The notes below the pieces were generated by a model. It saw nothing but the letters and a program-made list of their open reading frames with translations. It was not told the DNA's origin and made no database searches. Below, piece after piece: positions 3,301 through 61,300 of a stretch of 64,000 nt of DNA. The stretch spans positions 62,001 to 126,000 of the forward strand of contig JAQGDQ010000354.1 of assembly GCA_030141605.1 (NCBI GenBank), given 5' to 3'. The stretch is from Tubiluchus corallicola (Eukaryota > Priapulida > Priapulimorpha > Priapulimorphida > Tubiluchidae). Position 1 is the first letter of the stretch; each line of letters opens with the position of its first letter. A program made the position numbers and the translations under genes.

Positions 3301-6300
3301 TGGCTGAGCAGTCCGCTCCTTGAACGTCTCCAGGGCGCACGCCTGGGTAAGCTGTATGGAGATCCTGAGTTGCCCAGACAACAGGAACCCCCTCTCTTCC
3401 TCCCTGGTGTAGTCCAAAGGAAAGCGGAGAGATACGTTTGAGAGAGTCACTTGACCTCCTCCGCCCTCTAGCCGTTGGCTGCTTGTGCAGCTCCACCTAG
3501 TGTCGACATACAGTGTGGGCATCCTGCAAGCCTACAGCACCTGGTATTCTTAGGCGATCACGCATCCAAGTACTAACCTGGCTCTACGTTGCTTAACTTC
3601 GGTGATCAGACGAGAACCGGTGTTTTCAACGTGATTTGTCTATATATATATATAGGCAGACGATCGCCTTCGGACCGACATCTCCCCGCTTTTGTCCTGC
3701 AAACCAAGACATTCGTGTAATTTTTTTTGTGAAAATTTGTACCATTTAGCTGTTTTAAATTATCATTTTAGTATTTCTTTTATGTATTTTTTTCTGTACG
3801 GCGTTCACCTACATATTTATATAGATTTTATGCTATACAAAAATGGATAAACTTAAACTTGTCGATTTGTTCGTCGTCAACTTCTCGCAAATGCTGACTG
3901 TCTCAGATTAAATTGTTCTGTAAGCATATCTTCCAGTAAAAAGAGCAAATTCAGCATGTGTCATCGTCTCACTTTGACATTATATTCATTTTCAATCAGT
4001 GTAATGTTATTTTCAGCATTTATATCGGGAATGGATATTAGATTCATGCCGGAATATCGTCTCGGTTTTGGAAGACCTTCCGTCCGTCAAGCCAGCTATT
4101 GATCATCTTTGCGAACTGTTACCACGCTTACAAGCTCGGTATTACTCGATCGCTTCATCTCCAAAAGTGAGTGTACTTTGAGGAAGTTTTGTTTTTTTGT
4201 AAAAATGCTTACCTCTGCTGTTAGTGCTTATTGCATAAGATGTCAAGTGGGTCGGTATCCGCTATGATTTAGTTTAGTTTTGTTTAGTTTATTATAATAT
4301 AAACTAAACTCACGTTCAGTACAATATAATGACATTAAGCACACAGTTACATCAAAATTGTTACTTCATACTGTAATAAATTATTATGTGTCATACACTA
4401 TTGTTATCATAAAAGAATAATTGTAAATTGATGATGATGGTGATGATGATGACGACGATGATGATGATGTGATGGGAATGGTGGTAGTGGTGATGGTGGT
4501 GATGTTGAAAGTGATTGTGATGGTGATGATGATGACGACGATGATGATGACGATGATGACGATGATGATGATGATGATGATGATGTGATGGGGATGGTGG
4601 TGGTGGTGATGGTGGTGATGTTGAATGTGATGGTGATGGTGATGGTGATGACAACGATGATGGTGATGATGACAAATGCTATATTTCACAGACACAAATC
4701 CACGTAAATACAATAGACAATACACAAACATAAATAAACAATGCATGCAGGAACACGTCTTCAAAAATACTGAAGCAAATGTACACTCTCGTCTGATAAG
4801 TCTTCCAGAGATTTAGTTACTAATTAAGAATAGATTTGATTTGGTTTAACTCTTTATTTCGAACTAGTTTCATAGAATACATAACATACAATCATTACAA
4901 AACATACAATAATTATAACCCCTCCTCTCAACACATACAAATTAATACATAAATAAATAAGATTGCAGAACTGAAATCCCCGACACAACAAACGTAGCTA
5001 GACTCTGTAGTTTCAATAATAGAGATGAGAGTGCCTAGACAATGCCTAAATTCATCAAAATTATTATCAGCTTCATAGGGAAAGTAAACATTAATTAATA
5101 CAAGTGGCATTAACTTATCAGGAAATGAAAGAGAAATATCCATTACTCTGCATTCGTTATGATAGGTAAGTATTTTACTGGTAACAGGAAGAGTTTTTCG
5201 CTGATTCGTTTTTTTTGTCTTTCCAATTGCTCTCTTGTCATTCACAATAGTCTCGGCTCTCTTGGGAAGATACTCTACTGCATGGTAAATTGCGTTTTCT
5301 AGTCGTATACTCGACGCGTATTAACCAATAGGCTGACTAGGCTATCACTTAGGGTGCCAAAGTTTTGAGGAGCGCCACATTTTAGAAAAAATTTTCTCCT
5401 CGGAAAATGTGTATAAATTCATGTTCATGTAAAGAGCGCATTTTACAACACACCACAGGCAGTTACCAAAGGCAGGTTGCATATAAGTGCCACATAACAA
5501 TCAGGGGCAAGGTATTACACAACAAGCAGTTGCACAACCTATGAGGGAATATGAGCGGAGACAGAACTATCAGCCTAGGGCATCATAAAGTGTTGTACGC
5601 CCCCGCATATACTAACATTGTTCAGCACATTTTTATTATACTAGCACACTAGAGAGAAACAGTTTTTTGTAGATTAGCAATTTATGACTTTAGAAGATAG
5701 TTTTTTCTCATAAAAGCTGAGATTGTCATCATTAGAATGTATTGCTTTACTTTAGGTACATCCAAACAGTATACATATAACTGCTATACTCGTCGACTAT
5801 ATTACACCAACCGGACGCAACAATAAAGGTGTCGCCACCTCGTGGTTAAAACTAAAACAACCAGCCGGTGAGGAACTGCCTAAGATTCCGATCTATGTGC
5901 GTAAGTCGCAGTTCCGCCTTCCGTTCAAGACGGCCACGCCGGTGATTATGATCGGTCCAGGAACGGGTCTCGCACCTTTCCGAGGCTTCGTTCAGGAGCG
6001 TGATTTTTACAGACGTGAAGGTATGTACGGCTAAATTCACTGTAGATTAGCTTAAAGGTCAAATGTAACCATAGTCAGATTACCACCTAGACTAGTCAGG
6101 CTGCAGCCTAGGGCCCCCCTCAAGCTTGAGGTGCCATGCTAAAAGATTTTCAAGAATGAGTATAATATTGTTGCGGAGCCCTCCCCTGGGGGCTGCCAGG
6201 TGGTCGAGGGCCGCGAAGACGGCTGAGCAGTCAGCTTCCGTTGGCGCGCTTTGCATTCTACTAGGACAGAGTGCAGAGAAAGAAATACAAAAGATAAATA

Positions 6301-9300
6301 ATCAGGTTCAAACTACGCCGTACCTACCCCAAATCCTGTTAAGCACTGAAAAGAGCAGCACACATGGTGGACGTGAGCACGACAGAGACGTAGTAACCTA
6401 CGTGCTCACCGCTTTTATAGCAAGTGACCTTGCGCATGCGCAAAGTCAACCTTGACCAAGCGTGGCCGCAACAATATTTTAATATTGCTGAGTAATTCGT
6501 TTAACTTATAATAAAATTTCAACTTTAAAAATGGAACCTCGGGAGTCTAAAAACTCAATGCTAAAAAAGATTGTTTGTGGCCAGTTATTTGAGATTAAGG
6601 GGCGTTGGCTCAGTATGCGTGGCCACCATAATTATTGGCATCCTTCTGTCTCGGAAGACAATGGAGTGTGCGCCAAGAGAGTCAGTTATTGATCACATTG
6701 ATGGAGCTGCAGCGTCGACTGTGGCTGAGCAGTCCGATCCTTGAACCACTGGAATGGCCTCTCCGGGGCGCACGCCTGGGCAAGGTGTATGGAGATCCTG
6801 AGTTCCCCAGACAACAGGAACCCCCCCCTTCCTCCCTGGTGTATTCCAAAGGAAAGCAGAGCGATACGTTTGGCACTAGGTTGGCTGCAGGAGCTGCCGG
6901 AGTCAGTGAGCATGCTGCACTGGTCCGACTTCGGGGCTCCACTCATGATTTGGAAGGTTTACTCCTCTACACATGGCCGTTGGGTCACTTGACCTCCTCT
7001 GCCCTCTAGCCGTTGGCTGCTTGTGCAGCTCCTCCGCCTAGTGTCGAGATACAGCGTGGGCATCCCGCAAGCCTACAGCACCTGGTATTCCTAGGCGGTC
7101 ACCAATCCAAGTACTAACCAGGCCCTACGTTGCTTAACTTCGGTGATCAGATGACAACCGGTATTTTCAACGTGATATGCCCGTAGTCCACCATAATTGC
7201 CACCATAATTTCATTAGCTTTGGGGCCCCCGAAGGTCATAATGTGGCCCTGAATACAGCATGATTTATGAACTATGTTCTAACTAAGTTTTTCTGATGTG
7301 TCTTAGTTCAAATGTACTAATTTTTGTTGAAAAGTGGGCAGTGGTGGCTCGTGTATAGGTACTGTGCAACTGCAGCACCCCCAATTTTCACTCAGTATTA
7401 TTGATAATATTCAATTATTATAAGTCTTTAGTTCTTTTTTTATACTTGCACGGAACCAGAGCACGTGAGGGTAATACTGTTTGCTTCACAGCCCAGCACA
7501 GTGGTGTGTTCAGCTGTTGTGCGCATGTGTCTGAGATAAAACACTATGCTGCACTGCTATCGTCTGCTGCTGCGTAGAGAAAGTACTATCGCTCACACAG
7601 TTTGTTGTCAGTTATCACATGCTTAAAAACTGTGTACCAACATACTTTGCCAGTCTTGAAATGAGTAAAATGGCTGATGCGCTTGTTTTGCTGTTTGGCA
7701 TTCCTTACGAGTTCTGCGTTACAGAAATGATGTGGTATCAAAAGAAGTCATTGCTAGCACAGTTAGATTGCAATTTTCCGAAGTTTCATGAGCAAAACTG
7801 CAGAAAATGTTGGGGGGGAATCCTACTTCGAGACCCAGTTTCATTAGGAAGGAAGCCATGAAATTTAATAAGATTAGTGCCAAACGTTAATGGTTAGCTG
7901 CAATATTAAGTTATGTTTAATGCAATATTAACTACCATCATGAATATTTCTTATTATTAGTTAAAGATTATTATTTCTGCAAAACTATTTATCAATACTA
8001 AATTAGAAAGACTGAAAAAATTTTGCACCTCCAGTGGGCCTCGAACCCAGGCCTTCTGCTTTCCGAGCAATTATTTGTCTCGTTATTACCCTAAGACTGA
8101 TTTCTGTTGCTTTTAAAGGTAAACCGATGGGCGAAACAATATTGTACACAGGCTGCAGGAATAAAGCTATTGACTACATATACGGCGATGAATTGGACCA
8201 GTACCACAAGGATGAGTCATTGACAGAGTTAAATGTTGCATTCTCACGTGATCAGCCTCATAAAGTTTATGTTACACATCTACTGAAGAATAATGCGGAG
8301 AAAGTGTGGAAGATACTGAACGAACAGAGTGGTCACATTTATGTGTGCGGGTTAGTGTGATTGTTGATGTTAAGTTTGTTTAAAGTAAAACATATTCTAT
8401 CCCATTTTGAAGTATGGTAAAATGTATACAGTTTAACACAGAATAATGTCAAGCATTTCTGATATTCGAAGTATGATCCTTTATACCGGGTGGCATAGCT
8501 CAATGGTAGTGTGCTGGCTTCCCACCCGGGAGGTTCTGGGTTCGACTCTTGACCGAGTCATACCAAAGATTTGAAAAATGGTGCCGCTGGTTCTTCGACC
8601 AAGCACACAGATTTATCGTAGTAACGTGCGTGTTATAATAATCAGGACTACTTTGGAAATAAGTATTAAGTTACTTAAAAGAAAACCAGACGATTGTGTA
8701 AACATTACTTCAGCATAAAAGTATGCTCTAGCATATTGAAAACTACAATAGCTTTTTTAAATCAAAGCCTAGATTAAATAATAATTACCTCGGATACTCA
8801 AATTTTATTAAACTTTCAAAGCTACGCGTGGCTCAGTCAATCTACTTAAGATTGGCAATGGCGCCTTTTTGTCACATTCGCGTGGACGACAAATAGAAGG
8901 CGGTACCGTGATAACCATGATCATGAACTGCAGTGTTAGTTTCTGACGTCATACGTGGAGCCCATTTCTCCTGACATCACACATTTAAACAGTAAAAGTT
9001 ACGGAAACGTGCTTGACGTGCTAGGGAAGATGACTGTTATTGCACAAACTGTGGTTAGTTTCTGGCGTAAGCAATAGCTGTGTTCTGTTGCCATTAATTA
9101 ACTTTCTAAGGTGATTATTAAAATATAAGAGACAATTGCTAAGTTTTGCAGACAAGAAAATGTATATTTTGGACAGTGAATTCAAATGAGATTGAGTCTA
9201 AACAATCGCCTGGTCTTCCTTTAAGATGTTATCCGTGGATCCTAAACAAAATTATTATCATATATTTTATGGTTTGCACTTATTTATCAAGATTTACCTT

Positions 9301-12094: not shown

Positions 12095-13945
12095 GTGGCG
12101 GTTTGTTTATAGGCACCTCGGAACTGCAGCGCCCTCTCTTTTTGATAACTTGCAATATAATGTGTTTTAACATTTTTAATTCCATCTTTATACTTGTACA
12201 TTATATAATGCTTAAGCTTAATGTCAGTAGCCATCCCCTAGTTCATGAAAAACAAAAATGGTTGATGTAACTGTGCGCTTTACAGTCCCAGTGACGAGGT
12301 GTTCGAGTGTTGTGCGCTTGCAGTTCTGCACACGTGTCCGAGATAAGAAGCTGCATGCTAGCTAGAGAAAGCACTGTCACTCACGCGGTGACAACCTTGT
12401 TGTGCGCGTGCGGTTCTGCACACGTGTCCGAGATAAGAAGCTGCATGCTAGGTAGAGAGAGCACTGTCACTCACGCGGTGACAACCTTGTTGTGCGCATG
12501 CGGTTCTGCACACGTGTCCGAGATAAGAACCTGCATGCTAGGTAGAGAGAGCATTGTCGCTCACGCGGTGACAACCTTGTTGTGCGCATGCGGTTCTGCA
12601 CACGTGTCTGAGATACGAAGCTGCATGCTAGCTAGAGAAAGCGCTGTCACTCACGCGGTGACAACCTTGTTGTGCGCATGCGGCTCTGCACACGTGTCCA
12701 AGATAAGAAGCTGCATGCTAGGTAGAGAGAGCACTGTCACTCACGCGGTGACAACCTTGTTGTGCGCATGTGGTTCTGCACACGTGTCTGAGATACGAAG
12801 CTGCATGTTAGGTAGAGAGAGCGCTGTCACTCACGCTGTGACAACCTTGTTGTGCGCATGCGGTTCTGCACACGTGTCTGAGATACGAAGCTGCATGTTA
12901 GGTAGAGAGAGCGCTGTCACTCACGCTGTGACAACCTTGTTGTGCGCATGCGGTTCTGCACACGTGTCCGAAATAAGAAGCTGCATGCTAGGCAGAGAGA
13001 GCACTGTCGCTCACGCGGTGACAACCTTGTTGTGCACATGCGGTTCTGCACACGTCTCCGAGATAAGAAGCTGCATGCTAGGTAGAGAGAGCACTGTCGC
13101 TCACGCGGTGACAACCTTGTTGTGCACTTGCGGTTCTGCACACGTGTCCGAGATAAGAAGCTGCATGCTAGGTAGAGAGAGCACTGTCGCTCACGCGGTG
13201 ACAACCTTGTTGTGCACATGCGGTTCTGCACACGTCTCCGAGATAAGAAGCTGCATGCTAGGTAGAGAGAGCACTGTCGCTCACGCGGTGACAACCTTGT
13301 TGTGCACATGCGGTTCTGCACACGTCTCCGAGATAAGAAGCTGCATGCTAGGTAGAGAGAGCACTGTCGCTCACGCGGTGACAACCTTGTTGTGCACTTG
13401 CGGTTCTGCACACGTGTCCGAGATAAGAAGCTGCATGCTAGGTAGAGAGAGCACTGTCGCTCACGCGGTGACAACCTTGTTGTGCGCATGCGGTTCTGCA
13501 CACGTCTCCGAGATAAGAAGCTGCATGCTAGGTAGAGAGAGCACTGTCGCTCACGCGGTGACAACCTTGTTGTGCACTTGCGGTTCTGCACACGTGTCCG
13601 AGATAAGAAGCTGCATGCTAGCTAGCATGCGGCCATGCACACACATGTCTGAGATCAGATGCCGCACGTTAAGTAGAATGAGTACTGTCGCTCACGCAGT
13701 GTCAGTTGTCACGTCCTTGAAAGCCAAGCCGAGTACCCCGGCATATTCTTGAACTGCGACAATTTAGGCTATTTTTTGTTTATTTAGTTTATGTATAAAT
13801 TTTCGTACATTTGTTTGTTTGTGATTACAATTACAACATTAAAATTACATTTGCTTGTTTCATTTTACAAAGTATTATAACAATGGCTAAAAATTTTCTG
13901 AAGCGGCACCCCCAGTAATTTTAACTACGAGCCACCCCTGACTCC
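12095..13945 (+). mobile_element. hAT-like element, copy C, with expanded internal repeat
   Basis: The left part matches copy A from about gtggcggtttgtttatagg. The right end is acgagccacccctg, i.e. terminus CAGGGGTGGCTCGT on the other strand. Between them, one internal block that is single-copy in copies A and D has been amplified to about 15 units of 90 bp. Confidence 0.75.
12309..13640. repeat. 90-bp minisatellite, about 15 units
   Basis: The unit contains cacgtgtccgagataagaag, ctgcatgctaggtagagaga and tcacgcggtgacaaccttgt. It is nearly identical across 1.3 kb. Because 90 is divisible by 3, a 481-codon plus frame and a 224-codon minus frame stay open. These have no homology and are not taken as genes. 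A diverged extra unit follows at 13625-13710. Confidence 0.92.
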
Positions 13946-45600: not shown

Positions 45601-48600
45601 GTTGCATTCACGACTTGTTCAGTTGTTGTTTTAATTTTCAACTGCATTATTTGCTTGCTTTTTTTCCATTGGTATAATTATAATATAACTGCTTTGCATT
45701 TTATTTATTTGCTACACTTAAGACCTAACCACGTATTTATTCACTTAACCATGTAGTCTGCCGTACTTTATAATATTTCTAAGTTATATAGGGGTGGCTG
45801 ACTCGATGACCTCCGGTCTTTCGCCACCCCATCTCTACATACTTTATATAATTTGTTGTATTTGCGCTATAAATATTGTAGCGGGTCGCAGAATTAAACC
45901 GCCACGGGCTTCGTGAAAATGCAGTGTATTGAATGTAAAATTGCGTGGGCCAATCAGAGCTCAGTTTTCTAGACCAATTTTCTCGAGCGTGTAACCTGTT
46001 CTCGTAGATTCAAGGGCAGTGCGTTCTCGTCCATGTTCGGCTTCGGTTTCATTTTGTTTTTCTCTTCTTGGTTGCTGTTATTAAGTCAGTCGTGATTCAG
46101 TCATTTTTTGTTTAACCCTTTGGTTTGCATTTCGACTCAACGCGTAAGTGTCAGCTATAAACTGTTGCTAAGTGTTTCATTTTACTGTTTTTCTTTCTTT
46201 TCTTTTTTTTATAATTTTCCTTAATTATGTATCCTCGCTATCATAGACGGCATCACAATATTATACTAGAGATGAATAAACCTTTGAATTGAATTGAATT
46301 GATTGTAAAAATGTTGAAATTTCAGGTACTGGATGTTGACCATCATAGAGGAATACCCATCACTTTGTGTATATTGTATGCAAGCATTGCCAGCCGTATT
46401 GGCGTCGTCTGTGAACCGATTAACTTTCCAGCACACTTTCTTCTCCGTTGGAAGGAACATCCCGAGTAAGGCAGCATACGTTTCAAATCTTTTGTTGAAC
46501 TCAAATTTAGTTTTTCCAAATTAATACAGTAGGCGCCGTATAGACTCAGTTGCTTGATTAACTCAAAAACACCTGGAACGGGCCGCTGCTATTCAAATGT
46601 GTATAAAAACTGCTGGTAGTTGACTCAATATTTTTCTTTCGCTTGCTTAAAATAAGACACTTGTGTGTGACCAAAGAGCTTTTACTGCTTTTATGTCATC
46701 TTTACATCGATTTTGTGCACTGTAATATAAGTAGAAACAGTCGTGTTAAGTACAGCTTTGTTTCTAAGCAGGTAAAGCATGTTTATCATATGTGCTAATA
46801 TGTTAGCGTAACGGTTTTGCTTTGAATCTGTCACCCACTTGTCTGCTGCAATTAACCTTCATTAACCAAAGAATTTCTGGAAGCTGAACATTTAATCACT
46901 TGACCAGCGGTTTGCTTTTCAAGCTCCCGCTGCTTTTCACAGAGGAAACAAGGTCATCACCAACTGCAACTCAAGCACCAGGTGACTAAGTGTTTTGAGT
47001 GAATGTGTGCAGCATACAGCAACAGATTTTCAAATGTTTTTATGATTATGTGAATTTGTTGTGATGGGCAGGAATATACGTACATTGACGCATTTCGTAA
47101 AGTTTACTTTTCACTTGCAGACTTACTGATGGGCAGGAATATACGTACATTGACGCATTTCGTAAAGTTTACTTTTCACTTGCAGACTTACTGATGGGCA
47201 GGAATATACGTACATTGACGCATTTCGTAAAGTTTACTTTTCACTTGCAGGCTTACTGAAGGGCAGGAATATACGTACATTGACGCATTTCGTAAAGTTT
47301 ACTTTTCACTTGCAGGCTTACTGATGGGCAGGAATATACGTACATTGACGCATTTCGTAAAGTTTACTTTTCACTTGCAGGCTTACTGATGGGCAGGAAT
47401 ATACGTACATTGACGCATTTCGTAAAGTTTACTTTTCACTTGCAGACTTACTGATGGACAGGAATATACATACATTGACGCATTTCGTAAAGTTTACTTT
47501 TCACTTGCAGGCTTACTGATGGACAGGAATATACATACATTGACGCATTTCGTAAAGTTTACTTTTCACTTGCAGACTTACTGATGGACAGGAATATACA
47601 TACATTGACGCATTTCGTAAAGTTTACTTTTCACTTGCAGACTTACTGATGGACAGGAATATACATACATTGACGCATTTCGTAAAGTTTACTTTTCACT
47701 TGCAGGCTTACTGATGGACAGGAATATACATACATTGACGCATTTCGTAAAGTTTACTTTTCACTTGCAGACTTACTGATGGACAGGAATATACATACAT
47801 TGACGCATTTCGTAAAGTTTACTTTTCACTTGCAGACTTACTGATGGACAGGAATATACATACATTGACGCATTTCGTAAAGTTTACTTTTCACTTGCAG
47901 ACTTACTGATGGACAGGAATACACATACATTGACGCATTTCGTAAAGTTTACTTTTCACTTGCAGACTTACTGATGGGCAGGAATATAGATACATTGACG
48001 CATTTCGTAAAGTTTACTTTTCACTTGCAGGCTTACTGATGGACAGGAATATACATACATTGACGCATTTCGTAAAGTTTACTTTTCACTTGCAGACTTA
48101 CTGATGGACAGGAATATACATACATTGACGCATTTCGTAAAGTTTACTTTTCACTTGCAGGCTTACTGATGGACAGGAATATACATACATTGACGCATTT
48201 CGTAAAGTTTACTTTTCACTTGCAGGCTTACTGATGGGCAGGAATATACGTACATTGACGCATTTCGTAAGGGAAGGTTTATGCCACAGCAAGATTGTGT
48301 CCGTACTTTAGACATAAGGAATATTCTAGATGAAACTTTTTACTCTGCTATTCCACCAACTGAGGTAAATTCAATTCTTGGTGCTTGTAATAAAGAGAAA
48401 AATGTTTTTTGATCAAATCAGGAATTGATAGTAATATAATGTAAACCAAAGCAGTCAGTGTTGCATCTGGGGATTGTCTGTTGTGTTTATAGTAAGAGCC
48501 TAATTCAATACTTGTATTTAAATCATTCTCTGGTTAATATTGGCAAGCTTACGTTAAACCTTGGGCTTTTCTATGTTGACCATTTTGCATCCACATTGTG

Positions 48601-51600: not shown

Positions 51601-54600
51601 GATATATGAGTGTACGATTCTTTTACTTTTGAGCAGCTTTGTGACATGCTAGCGGAACGACTGAATCGATATTTTTTGTTTTTTCCTGTAGTTAACAGCA
51701 AAACTAAAGTCGAAGCATTCCGAAGTGAAATATGCCGTGGGTTTAGTAATGCAGCATAAAAGGTAGGTGAAAAAATTACATCTGAGTGTTTGCTACAGTC
51801 TTAAATTTCTCACTTTGTTTGGCTTTGAATTTGCTTGAATTTGTTACGTTGTCATTTTTTGTGCAATTCTAGCGGTGCATTTAGATACCAAGTAACTCGC
51901 AAGTGCATTAAGACTAGAGAGCAAAACCTGCCGCCAGTTACTCTCCGTCTGTAACCTCAAGCTGATGCTTATTTCTCTATTCACTTTGAGATGTGTTGAG
52001 AGTAACTCTCGAGCATGTTCAGACTAGAGAGCAAAACTTGCCGCCAGTTACTCTCCGTCTGTAACCGCAAGCTGGCGCTTACTTCTCTATTCACTGTGAG
52101 ATGTGTTGAGAGTAACTCTCAAGCATGTTCAGACTAGAGAGCAAAACCTACCACGAGTTACTCTCTGTCAATAACCGCAAGGTGATGGTTACTTCTCTAT
52201 TCACTGTGAGATGTGTTGAGAGTAACTCACAGAGGCATTCACACTAGTTAGTAACTTGCAGGAAATTAACTCGCGCCAACTGTCGGAGAGTTTGTGTGAG
52301 TGCAAAAATTGATTGTGTGTTTTCGTGTTGGTCAGTTTATGTTAGTAAGTAAGTAAAAAATTTATTTGTCTCTGAATGTTACAAAATAAACATAAACAAA
52401 AGGTAAAAACTAAAATAAAGACGGAAAAGAGACGGGGTGGCGAAAAGACTAAGGGTCACCAAGTCAACCACCCCTATCCAAACTGAAGAAAATTAAGTGA
52501 CCTGTCAAGTAAGGTATGTACTAATGAAAATAATCAGCAACTTAACAAAAAATAAAAAATAAATAAAATAAAAATAAATGAGGCAACAAGTTGAAATGAG
52601 TTTAAATTTACCGCATAATGTTACACTTTTAAATTTTTCAAACATGTCAGCAGACATTTTGTGTGATTCGTTTGATAGGAAGAAGGAATGATTTTAAAAT
52701 GAATTTTGGTGGTATGGGTTTATATATGATTATAATTTTCTTTTGTTATATTTTTAAGCAACTTTTTTATGTGCATATATTATGCGGTAAATTTAATATT
52801 TTTAATCACATGTTTAAATGCAGTGAAACATGTCCCTTTTCTTTTAAACTGGCACCTGTTTTTATTTTAATCACTGATTATATTTTTCAGGTATTTCTAC
52901 CCCTGTGTGATTTATGGGTGGGATCCGATATGTGAAGCCAGTCAGCAGTGGATTCATCAGATGGGTGTGCATAAACTACAAGATCAGGAGAAACAACCTT
53001 TCTACAATGTTTTGGCCGATGATGGCTCTAATAGATACGCTGCACAGGGTAAATTTTATTCCATGTATTTGGTTTTAAAACAATTGAATTTGGTGTGTAT
53101 AGTGAAACACATTTTTGTACTCGGAGACGCAACAAGAAATGTACGATTGCAGTTATTTCAGCTAAACTCCTATGAATTCTCTACATTATTAACATGTCAC
53201 ATGTGTGTGACATGCGCTAAATACAAGTCCAACAGTCTTTTAGATGTAATTTATGATTTTTTATTGTCCAAAATGGGCAATCATCGTCTCATCCCAAAAT
53301 CGCTATCACATCATGACATATTTGACTGACTGACTGACTGACTGACTGATATATTATGAGCGACTCGACTTCATTTTACCTGAAGCAAATAAAAAACATT
53401 TTCTGCTAATCCAATGTCAAAACGATAATTAACTGCTATAATGAAAATGTATAATAATATTATGAAATATGAAGAAATCAAACTTACATCTTTGCCGCAT
53501 CTTACTAACTTGCTAAAGAGAACTCGACTGACAAAATTTTGTTATAAAACGACACGACGTGCTGAACAAGAATGACTTCTTTCCTATCCTGTCTGCAAAA
53601 TGTCCTGTCCTAGCTCACCTGTCTATCAACAGCCTAAATTTGCAAAAAACAAACACAAGGAGGCACCACTTGCTTATATCCAAAACATCACAGTTCCGTG
53701 CCATTTGAGCTTCTGCTTACGAGATTAAATGTCAGTAAGTTAAGGCTGCTAATTCACGAATACTCTGTCTAAAGTATTTTTGCACATGCATAGTACGTAT
53801 TGTACAGTAATGTATAGATTTAATGAATTCACGTTAGCATCTTCCATTTCACGTTAGCATCCGACTGTCGCATGTGCATAGTTTTTATGAAATGTATTTA
53901 TAAAATAAGTATAGCGTCCCTACTTCGCGGAAATTCACTTGTCGCTGGTGGGCCTGGAACAGAACACCCGCGATAAGTGAGGGAACACTGTATTTCCATC
54001 TTATGCACTTTCCATTAACATTTCATCTTTTTCTTATCTATCCTTTTTTACACCTTAAAACCTGCTTTAATGTTGTGCACCATTAACTACATTAACTACA
54101 CTTGCACAAGGACTGCTTCTTGACGATTATGAAAGCAACATTTATATAGATACCATGCCATTTTCATTTTATTGAAGTATTGCTGTAATTATGAAATTCT
54201 GAGTAGTATGACTTTCATATTGTGTTTTGTTGTGGTATATATCTGTTGTGTTTTGTTGTGGTATATATTTGTTGTGTTTTGTTTCTCTCGGAAGGCTTGT
54301 AGAGAAAACCAGAAAACACTTCATCAAATTTAACTAGTTTATTAAGCGAAAATTCTACAACACAAAGTATGAAGGAACGCGAAATGTTTACACTAAATGT
54401 GAAAATCTGGAAAACGTTTAAGTATATCTGAAAATCAAAGTATACAAGAGAATGTGTAAGTGGCGTCCGTGTGAATCTGTGTGTATCTCTCAGCGGGCTG
54501 CTTCGCCTTATATAGGGTGCCAGGGAACATTCTAGAAGTTTCCTTCTAGAACATTCTACAAGGTAAGACGATTATTCTAACGGAACATACTACAATGTTC

Positions 54601-58357: not shown

Positions 58358-61300
58358 TTAGTAGTTTTGTATATTAATGCCAGCTCTTAGTTTCATGCAC
58401 TGCACCTCGTCAATGTAAATCGTGTTGGCTTTGACTTGAATGTCTCGTTCAAGGTTGAGTATGGTTGATTGAAGCTTTTTCAGTGTTGCTAACGCTTCTT
58501 CTCGTTTCTCAATCAATCTGTAAAAAACAACATGGTCAATCCTTCAGGACCGCACAACAACATGAGGACACACTGGTCAATCCTTCAGGACTGCACAACA
58601 ACATGTGGACACACTGGTTAATCCTTCAGGACTGCACAACAACATGTGGACACACTGGTTAATCCTTCAGGACTGCACAACAACATGAGGACACACTGGT
58701 TAATCCTTCAGGACCGCACAACAACATGAGGACACACTGGTTAATCCTTCAGGACCTCACAACAACATGAGGACATGCTGGTCAATCCTTCAGGACTGCA
58801 CAACAACATGAGGACACACTGGTTAATCCTTCAGGACTGCACGACAACATGTGGACACACTGGTTAATCCTTCAGGACCGCACAACAACATGAGGACACA
58901 CTGGTTAATCCTTCAGGACCGCACAACAACATGAGGACATGCTGGTCAATCCTTCAGGACTGCACAACAACATGAGGACACACTGGTTAATCCTTCAGGA
59001 CTGCACGACAACATGTGGACACACTGGTTAATCCTTCAGGACCGCACGACAACATGAGGACACACTGGTCAATCCTTCAGGACCGCACAACAACATGAGG
59101 ACACACTGGTCAATCCTTCAGGACTGCACAACAACATGAGGACACACTGGTTAATCCTTCAGGACCGCACAACAACATGAGGACTCACTGGTTAATCCTT
59201 CAGGACCGCACAACAACATGAGGACACACTGGTTAATCCTTCAGGACCGCACAACAACATGAGGACACACTGGTCAATCCTTCAGGACCGCACAACAACA
59301 TGAGGACACACTGGTTAATCCTTCAGGACCGCACAACAACATGAGGACACACTGGTTAATCCTTCAGGACCGCACAACAACATGAGGACACACTGGTCAA
59401 TCCTTCAGGACCGCACAACAACATGAGGACACACTGGTCAATCCTTCAGGACCACACAACAACATGAGGACACACTGGTTAATCCTTCAGGACTGCACAA
59501 CAACATGAGGACACACTGGTTAATCCTTCAGGACTGCACAACAACATGAGGACACACTGGTCAATCCTTCAGGACCGCACAACAACATGAGGACACACTG
59601 GTTAATCCTTCAGGACCGCACAACAACATGAGGACACACTGGTCAATCCTTCAGGACTGCACAACAACATGAGGACTCACTGGTCAATCCTTCAGGACCG
59701 CACAACAACATGAGGACACACTGGTCAATCCTTCAGGACTGCACAACAACATGAGGACACACTGGTCAATCCTTCAGGACTGCACAACAACATGAGGACA
59801 CACTGGTCAATCCTTCAGGACTGCACAACAACATGAGGACACGCTGGTCAATCCTTCAGGACCGCACAACAGCATGAGGACACACTGGTCAATCCTTCAG
59901 GACCGCACTATCCAAAATAGGTCTCTTACCTGAAAAACATGCCCTATTCAGGTAACTCAAATTAGTATATAGAGTAGCTTAGTCTGGTGTACACTTGCAT
60001 GATCGTACACACTATTTTGTAGATCGCCTGCTTGCTACAGCCCAAGCTGTGCACTGTTCTGCTGCTGTTCCAGGAATAATCAACCGATCAACCAAGAACA
60101 ATTTAAGGTCGACTCATTTTTTAACAAGAATGTCTCCTTTATTTAAAAATAGAGTAGACTTGAGGCCAAAGTGTGTCAGAGTGTCGTGTCTGGATAGTTG
60201 AAATTTTCTATATTAGCAGATTTCACACAAGTTATGCTGTACCTTGTTACAAAGCAAAAACTGCAGTTACTAAAAGCTTTTTTAAAATTTTCTCGTCATA
60301 AATTGATTTTTAATTTGTCTAAGGTAAGCAGATGCGTTTCATATATAATTTTGCATGAAAATCCATTTTGTGAGGAGTAGAAACCTACAAAAAATATCAA
60401 ATATAACGTAATCGCTGCTTAGTGAGAGCAGTTTTTCATGAACACATGCAAATTGCAGCAAATGCTTACGGTCCTGAAGGAGTTAAAAATAACCAAAGAT
60501 TCATAATAATACATTAAATCAATTACATACAGATACTACTGAATTCATTTATTTTCACATTTTTAAGACTTCTGTTTTTCTTTAAACAAAATCGACTAGA
60601 TTTTCTTATCTGAATGTATATCTACAAAAAACAGAAAATAAGAAATTTGTTTTGTGAGCTCTGTTGAGCAATTAAGCTGTGACTTGTAGATTGCTAAACA
60701 AACACCTTTTTTTCTGTATTGCACTGATTTAATCGTTTTTTGCAAATATCAGACATTTATCTAATAATCGGCCGACTAGAGAAATAAAAATCATTAAACG
60801 TTTTTCTAGCTTGGATTACAATGGTAAACCCATGTAATGTTTATTGGGGAGTGACATGGAATGGCAGCAGAGGAAATCTTTGCATTTACACGCACAACGC
60901 CTCATAAAAATGAGTTAATGTTCTTGACTGACATTCAATTTAATCAAGTTTCTATACTGAAATTAACAATTTATTTACATATTGCACAAACTCAAACATA
61001 AAAGACAGTGGGAAGAAAATGTAATTTTAAGATATATCCCAAAGAAAAATATCTCTATACAAGTTGTACATTTTTGTGTATGGACATTCATATGCTGAGG
61101 TTTGAGTGGTAGCCCCTCCACTCTTAGCAACCATGCTTTGAGAGACTCTGTGCCCATGGTGGGCCGCCCCCTTGTGCCAAATGGTATTACGAGATATTTG
61201 TACATCTCAGCGACTCCCAGCATCGGGACAGGAGTCTGGCTGATGTTCCACGTGGGATCTACAATCACTTTCGTAGCCTTTCGTCGGTATGCCTTGACTA

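Follow-up and report, generated by a model that had tools for sequence, protein, structure and literature searches.

A minisatellite repeating the intron 6/exon 7 boundary of an FBXO21-like gene in Tubiluchus corallicola, probably a tolerated genomic accident

A minisatellite of 65-bp units straddles the boundary between intron 6 and exon 7 of an FBXO21-like gene in the priapulid Tubiluchus corallicola, and the 18 tandem 3′ splice sites that it carries include only one, the last, that leaves the reading frame open among the products tested. All positions below refer to the 64,000-nt stretch of DNA analysed, called the window. We consider it likely that the array is a tandem expansion of the boundary of the type known as "mirages", the name given in amphioxus Adh3 to tandem repeats that span intron/exon boundaries (Canestro et al. 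2002, as cited in PMC3087553), and that it is passively tolerated without a selected function. Given the match to a known class of repeats, and given that only the last copy yields the normal protein, the array probably represents a genomic accident that is tolerated, rather than a control switch. It offers a clean natural test of spliceosome choice, with 18 near-identical 3′ splice sites at 65-nt spacing of which the last alone is useful.

Host gene and repeat structure

Judging by its predicted protein, the gene hosting the array is a real, FBXO21-like gene. Exons chained by hand on the plus strand encode an F-box-like domain, Transglut_core2 (1e-36) and YccV-like (9e-15), in that order, which we take to be the FBXO21 architecture. 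Exon 6 (46326-46465, plus strand) ends in a phase-2 donor, CCCGA|GTAAGG, and its open frame runs into the Transglut_core2 match. Exon 7 proper (LTDGQEYTYIDAFRKGRFMPQQDCVRTLDIRNILDETFYSAIPPTE; 48226-48364, plus strand) measures 139 nt and ends in the donor ..ACTGAG|GTAAAT. The residues encoded at the junction of the two exons, ..LLRWKEHPE|LTDGQEYTYIDAF.., fall inside the Transglut_core2 match.

The array occupies 47062-48270 on the plus strand, as located by TRF and exact-string positions, with 18.6 copies at period 65, 98% matches, no indels and a score of 2236; as a repeat it is far beyond chance. Every full unit consists of 41 nt from the start of exon 7 and 24 nt from the end of intron 6 (GTAAAGTTTACTTTTCACTTGCAG), which agrees with an earlier note on this DNA that had described 65-bp units combining the intron end with the coding start of exon 7. 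The same note gave about 18 tandem acceptors and about 19 repeats of the unit; the acceptors number 18, not 19, in an array of 18.6 copies. The 24 intronic nucleotides are invariant across all copies. Within the window the exact string ACTTTTCACTTGCAG occurs 18 times, its last G at 47120 + 65n as far as 48225 and all spacings being 65 bp, and three further occurrences lie outside the window in the 343.5-Mb assembly. The first 17 of these strings are the decoy 3′ splice sites (47106-48160, plus strand, last G at 47120 + 65n), and the 18th (48211-48225, plus strand) is the open-frame acceptor. A branch-point-like TTGAC, with its A at −33, precedes each decoy and lies within exon-derived DNA (Ile-Asp-Ala codons). 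A donor-like GTAAAG is also present in each unit. Over the intronic part of the unit, acceptor 18 has no feature in cis that the other acceptors lack. The array holds no long hidden ORF, the longest open run on either strand being 65 codons.

Exon 7 itself contains TTTC|GTAAGG at 48267-48272, GTAAGG being the six bases of the real donor of exon 6. The array copies have GTAAAG instead, which is weaker.

Predicted splice products

Ten units have A directly after the acceptor and eight have G, the last unit among the latter, and the split codon is neutral at all acceptors, as had been claimed, since GA|G and GA|A both encode Glu. When exon 6 is joined to any of acceptors 1-16, the first stop lies 139 nt beyond the junction and 9 nt inside the third unit; for acceptor 17 the distance is 151 nt, which places the stop within exon 7 proper. 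The frame stays open with acceptor 18 only, among the products tested, so the last acceptor is indeed required for the full-length protein. Read-through from upstream acceptors does reach a stop, as the earlier note proposed, although in the third unit (or in exon 7, for acceptor 17) and not within the second. From these stops to the end of exon 7 there remain at least 195 nt for acceptors 1-15, 130 nt for acceptor 16 and 53 nt for acceptor 17, and FBXO21 has more introns 3′ of exon 7. As a rule, a stop sufficiently upstream of a later exon junction leads to nonsense-mediated decay (NMD). Because the stops fall before the exon 7 end and further introns follow, transcripts from all 17 decoy acceptors would by this rule be NMD targets.

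Each unit could also define a mini-exon, for which a length of 41 nt ending at GTAAAG had been given correctly. One or two such mini-exons shift the frame and three have a length divisible by three. The suggestion that three would restore the frame nonetheless fails, as none of the 680 ordered triples is open: in each of them the second junction puts (G/A)CT TAC TGA in frame. With a stop in every triple, a route through multiples of mini-exons is closed, and consecutive runs of one to six mini-exons contain stops in all cases. The donor-like TTTC|GTAAAG is itself weak by inspection, lacking G at −1 and G at +5.

With all upstream copies now lying in the intron, the working acceptor would be the last one. 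Exon definition probably picks this acceptor as the closest to exon 7's own donor, giving an exon of 139 nt as against 204-1244 nt with the upstream acceptors. Any use of the latter would lead to premature stops and some wasted transcript.

That wastage might instead be put to use, as the earlier note suggested, if the decoys competed with the last acceptor and their copy number set the amount of FBXO21 mRNA lost to NMD. Over the 24 intronic nucleotides the decoys do not differ from the working site, each has its own branch-point-like motif, 17 of 17 give a stop upstream of a later exon junction, and there is a precedent in the intronic VNTR of ABCA7, which is reported to alter splicing (PMC5954066). 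We nevertheless hold such a copy-number-tunable switch to be unlikely, given that mini-exon rescue is impossible, that published mirages are reported without disturbance of mRNA splicing and that the assembly has one copy of the locus only. Regulation of FBXO21 through NMD is possible but unsupported.

An unlikely reading, too, is that of a loss-of-function or strongly deleterious private allele, in which the 5′-most acceptors, nearest to the branch point, would dominate and leave the transcript mostly unproductive. The absence of any intronic feature in cis that sets acceptor 18 apart is in keeping with it. Against it stand the intact exon copy and FBXO21 frame, together with the shared array variants described below, which are synonymous, as they should be in a gene on which selection still acts.

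Variation among units

The units differ at six positions, none of them in the 24 intronic bases. Five of these six variable sites are third codon positions in the exon 7 frame and four of the six changes are synonymous, as are all three shared variants, at unit positions 1, 13 and 25. With sites placed at random, and irrespective of CpG weighting, P is ~0.001-0.002 for at least five third-position sites out of six and ~0.01 for all three shared variants, in a codon-position test that comprises six sites only and was devised after looking at the data. There are seven distinct unit forms in an ordered variant pattern with distinct end units: the A-type (GGA/ACA) fills units 6-17 almost wholly and G-type units are found at both ends of the array. 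G-type ends around an A-type middle are the usual pattern of homogenised inner units.

Since the variable sites are almost all third codon positions, the data suggest sequence exchange between the array and the coding exon, the units of the array either passing through the coding position or being copied from there. Such exchange would let selection at the protein level hold the units nearly synonymous, and the start of the exon may be overwritten by minisatellite turnover with the protein unchanged. The shared variants would also be compatible with one early expansion of a lineage in which two synonymous changes had arisen by chance.

Exchange with exon 7 could likewise be part of a length-variable rheostat, which it would keep coding-compatible while the share of decoys, and with it NMD, grows with copy number. 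We find such a rheostat unlikely.

Origin of the array

Upstream of the array, intron 6 contains a 3′-truncated copy of a dispersed repeat (46540-47057, plus strand), alignable with positions 61-564 of a relative that is full length. The assembly contains dozens of relatives (77-87% identity), most of those sampled being complete, at ~880 bp; the window copy ends at element position 564. Four bases, GTTG (47058-47061, plus strand), stand between the element and the first partial unit and match neither neighbour, which is consistent with a deletion join with filler. The array then starts in mid-unit, at TGATGGGCAGG.

From this arrangement we infer duplication, expansion and deletion, in that order, as the simplest course of events. 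A duplication across the intron 6/exon 7 boundary would have joined exon ..TTTCGTAA to intron AGTTTACTTTTCACTTGCAG, creating the junction CGTAA|AGTTT, after which the 65-bp unit would have expanded to 18.6 copies via slippage or unequal exchange. A deletion on the left side would then have taken the 3′ part of the element along with the start of the first unit, fusing the mobile element to the array. Loss of upstream intron sequence would be tolerable because every unit supplies its own acceptor and the branch-point-like TTGAC at −33. As this TTGAC sits in exon-derived DNA, the present intron signals may in part be recycled coding sequence.

The mobile element was also considered as a generator of the array and rejected, most sampled copies being full length with no array at the 3′ end. 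Among the sampled copies, an array at the 3′ end is found only in the window copy and in one on contig C1784.

The copy on C1784 (C1784:85900-88400, 673-1279) is truncated at 562, close to the 564 of the window copy, with a 112-bp tandem array ~10 bp further on. On C2125, C2105 and C44 the copies stop at 544 and have no array. The six on C2107, C2074, C2072, C1974, C1831 and C1752 agree exactly in length, score and query range, suggesting that the element lies there within a larger repeat or a segmental duplication.

Assembly support

Support for the array in the assembly is good; its copy number may still be wrong. A search of the assembly for a second haplotype of the locus found none, the locus being present in one copy only. 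Assemblies are prone to errors in tandem arrays of 1.2 kb, and one amphioxus mirage was misassembled in the draft genome (PMC3087553), so that a smaller array or a single boundary might have been falsely expanded here. We judge an artefact of this kind to be highly unlikely: the units are non-identical, with seven forms, ordered variants and distinct end units, the window has further arrays of a similar nature, and the flanking DNA is unique and belongs to the gene.

Comparison with known systems

Like the amphioxus mirages of Adh3, globin BflGb6/BflGb9, troponin C and PGBD5, the FBXO21 array is a minisatellite-like duplication across an intron/exon boundary. Its units span that boundary in a protein-coding gene (41 nt of exon 7 and 24 nt of intron 6), carry cryptic AG/GT signals (18 CAG acceptors, and GTAAAG per unit) and are homogenised inside the array and divergent at its edges. 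Amphioxus BflGb6 is of the same type, repeating the 3′ end of an intron with the 5′ part of exon 2; its units carry AG/GT signals, and its edge units differ from the homogenised inner ones as they do here. The two differ in gene and in dimensions, with 18.6 × 65 bp in FBXO21, while BflGb6 has 3-6 units of 150-160 bp.

From the data on amphioxus Adh3 and globins, the authors suggest that mirages leave regular splicing undisturbed, and they describe somatic instability of the Adh3 mirage (PMC3087553). The troponin C mirage is likewise said not to disturb splicing, and PGBD5 has splice sites with imperfect repeats (PMC3902484). Length instability together with normal splicing is thus published for amphioxus mirages, whereas the FBXO21 array is known from one assembly copy. 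Boundary-spanning minisatellites are already known, and the FBXO21 array is a new, unusually large mirage that may extend the class beyond the amphioxus genes in which it was named. In the library searched, a query for FBXO21 together with a minisatellite returned no paper.

In the potato RdRp gene, a two-copy duplication crossing an intron/exon boundary made an intron that is used, via a cryptic GTAAG (PMC4974935). There too a 5′ exon piece with a cryptic GTAAG-like donor is joined to the 3′ end of an intron; potato has two copies and a used new intron, whereas FBXO21 has many copies, a weak GTAAAG and no open mini-exon product. With 0 of 680 triples open, the array contains no frame-keeping new intron/exon pair of the kind produced by intron gain through tandem duplication. 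Although potato RdRp has the same layout, with its cryptic GTAAG donor in the exon part, inclusion of 41-nt mini-exons from the array units is exceedingly improbable, since 41 nt shift the frame, no combination of three is open and GTAAAG in the array is a weaker donor than the exonic GTAAGG it was cut from.

In human IFI6/G1P3, several splice donor sites are carried by a minisatellite (Nucleic Acids Res 1995, 23:1854, cited in PMC2572611). It resembles the FBXO21 array in multiplying a splice site within a gene and differs in that IFI6 multiplies donors and FBXO21 acceptors; the strong repeated site of the FBXO21 array is a 3′ acceptor, not a 5′ donor. The ABCA7 VNTR shares with the array its nature as an intronic tandem repeat. 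Its units are not known to be copies of an intron/exon boundary.

Genomic background

TRF detects 12 arrays of period at least 10 in the window, and in five of these the unit is present 14 times or more. A small sample of 75.5 kb of non-N sequence elsewhere, drawn from contigs already under study, contains 10 arrays of period at least 10, three with at least five copies (~1.8% of bases). Minisatellites are common in this genome, and the exon edges of an animal genome number, by estimate, in the order of a hundred thousand; at such densities some arrays should straddle exon edges by chance and without function.

Other minisatellites in the window are located at 58533-59908 (41-bp unit), 12308-13625 (90-bp unit) and 895-1674 (31-bp unit), and one with a 110-bp unit lies at 51911-52228, in another FBXO21 intron. 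Two 5S rRNA-like genes or pseudogenes are found on the minus strand at 3529-3647 and 7070-7188 (Rfam, 92 bits each), the former with a changed 5′ end. On contig C560, a partial 18S rRNA copy (1356-2471 of the excerpt) lies between what appear by eye to be exons of a fibronectin-type-III-like gene; it is the sole exact match to a conserved 18S string and apparently an rDNA insertion in an intron. Searches for mitochondrial COX1, mollusc haemocyanin, GH6 and GFP, a gene family present in amphioxus, gave no match, the GFP search having had no positive control; creatine kinases are present. Contigs C1761 (873,888 bp) and C2076 carry intron-free bacterial genes, and the best GTDB relatives of a C1761 protein are a Parachlamydiales MAG (54%) and a MAG labelled Aerophobetes. 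The assembly thus seems to hold a chlamydia-like symbiont or a co-assembled bacterium of at least 0.87 Mb.
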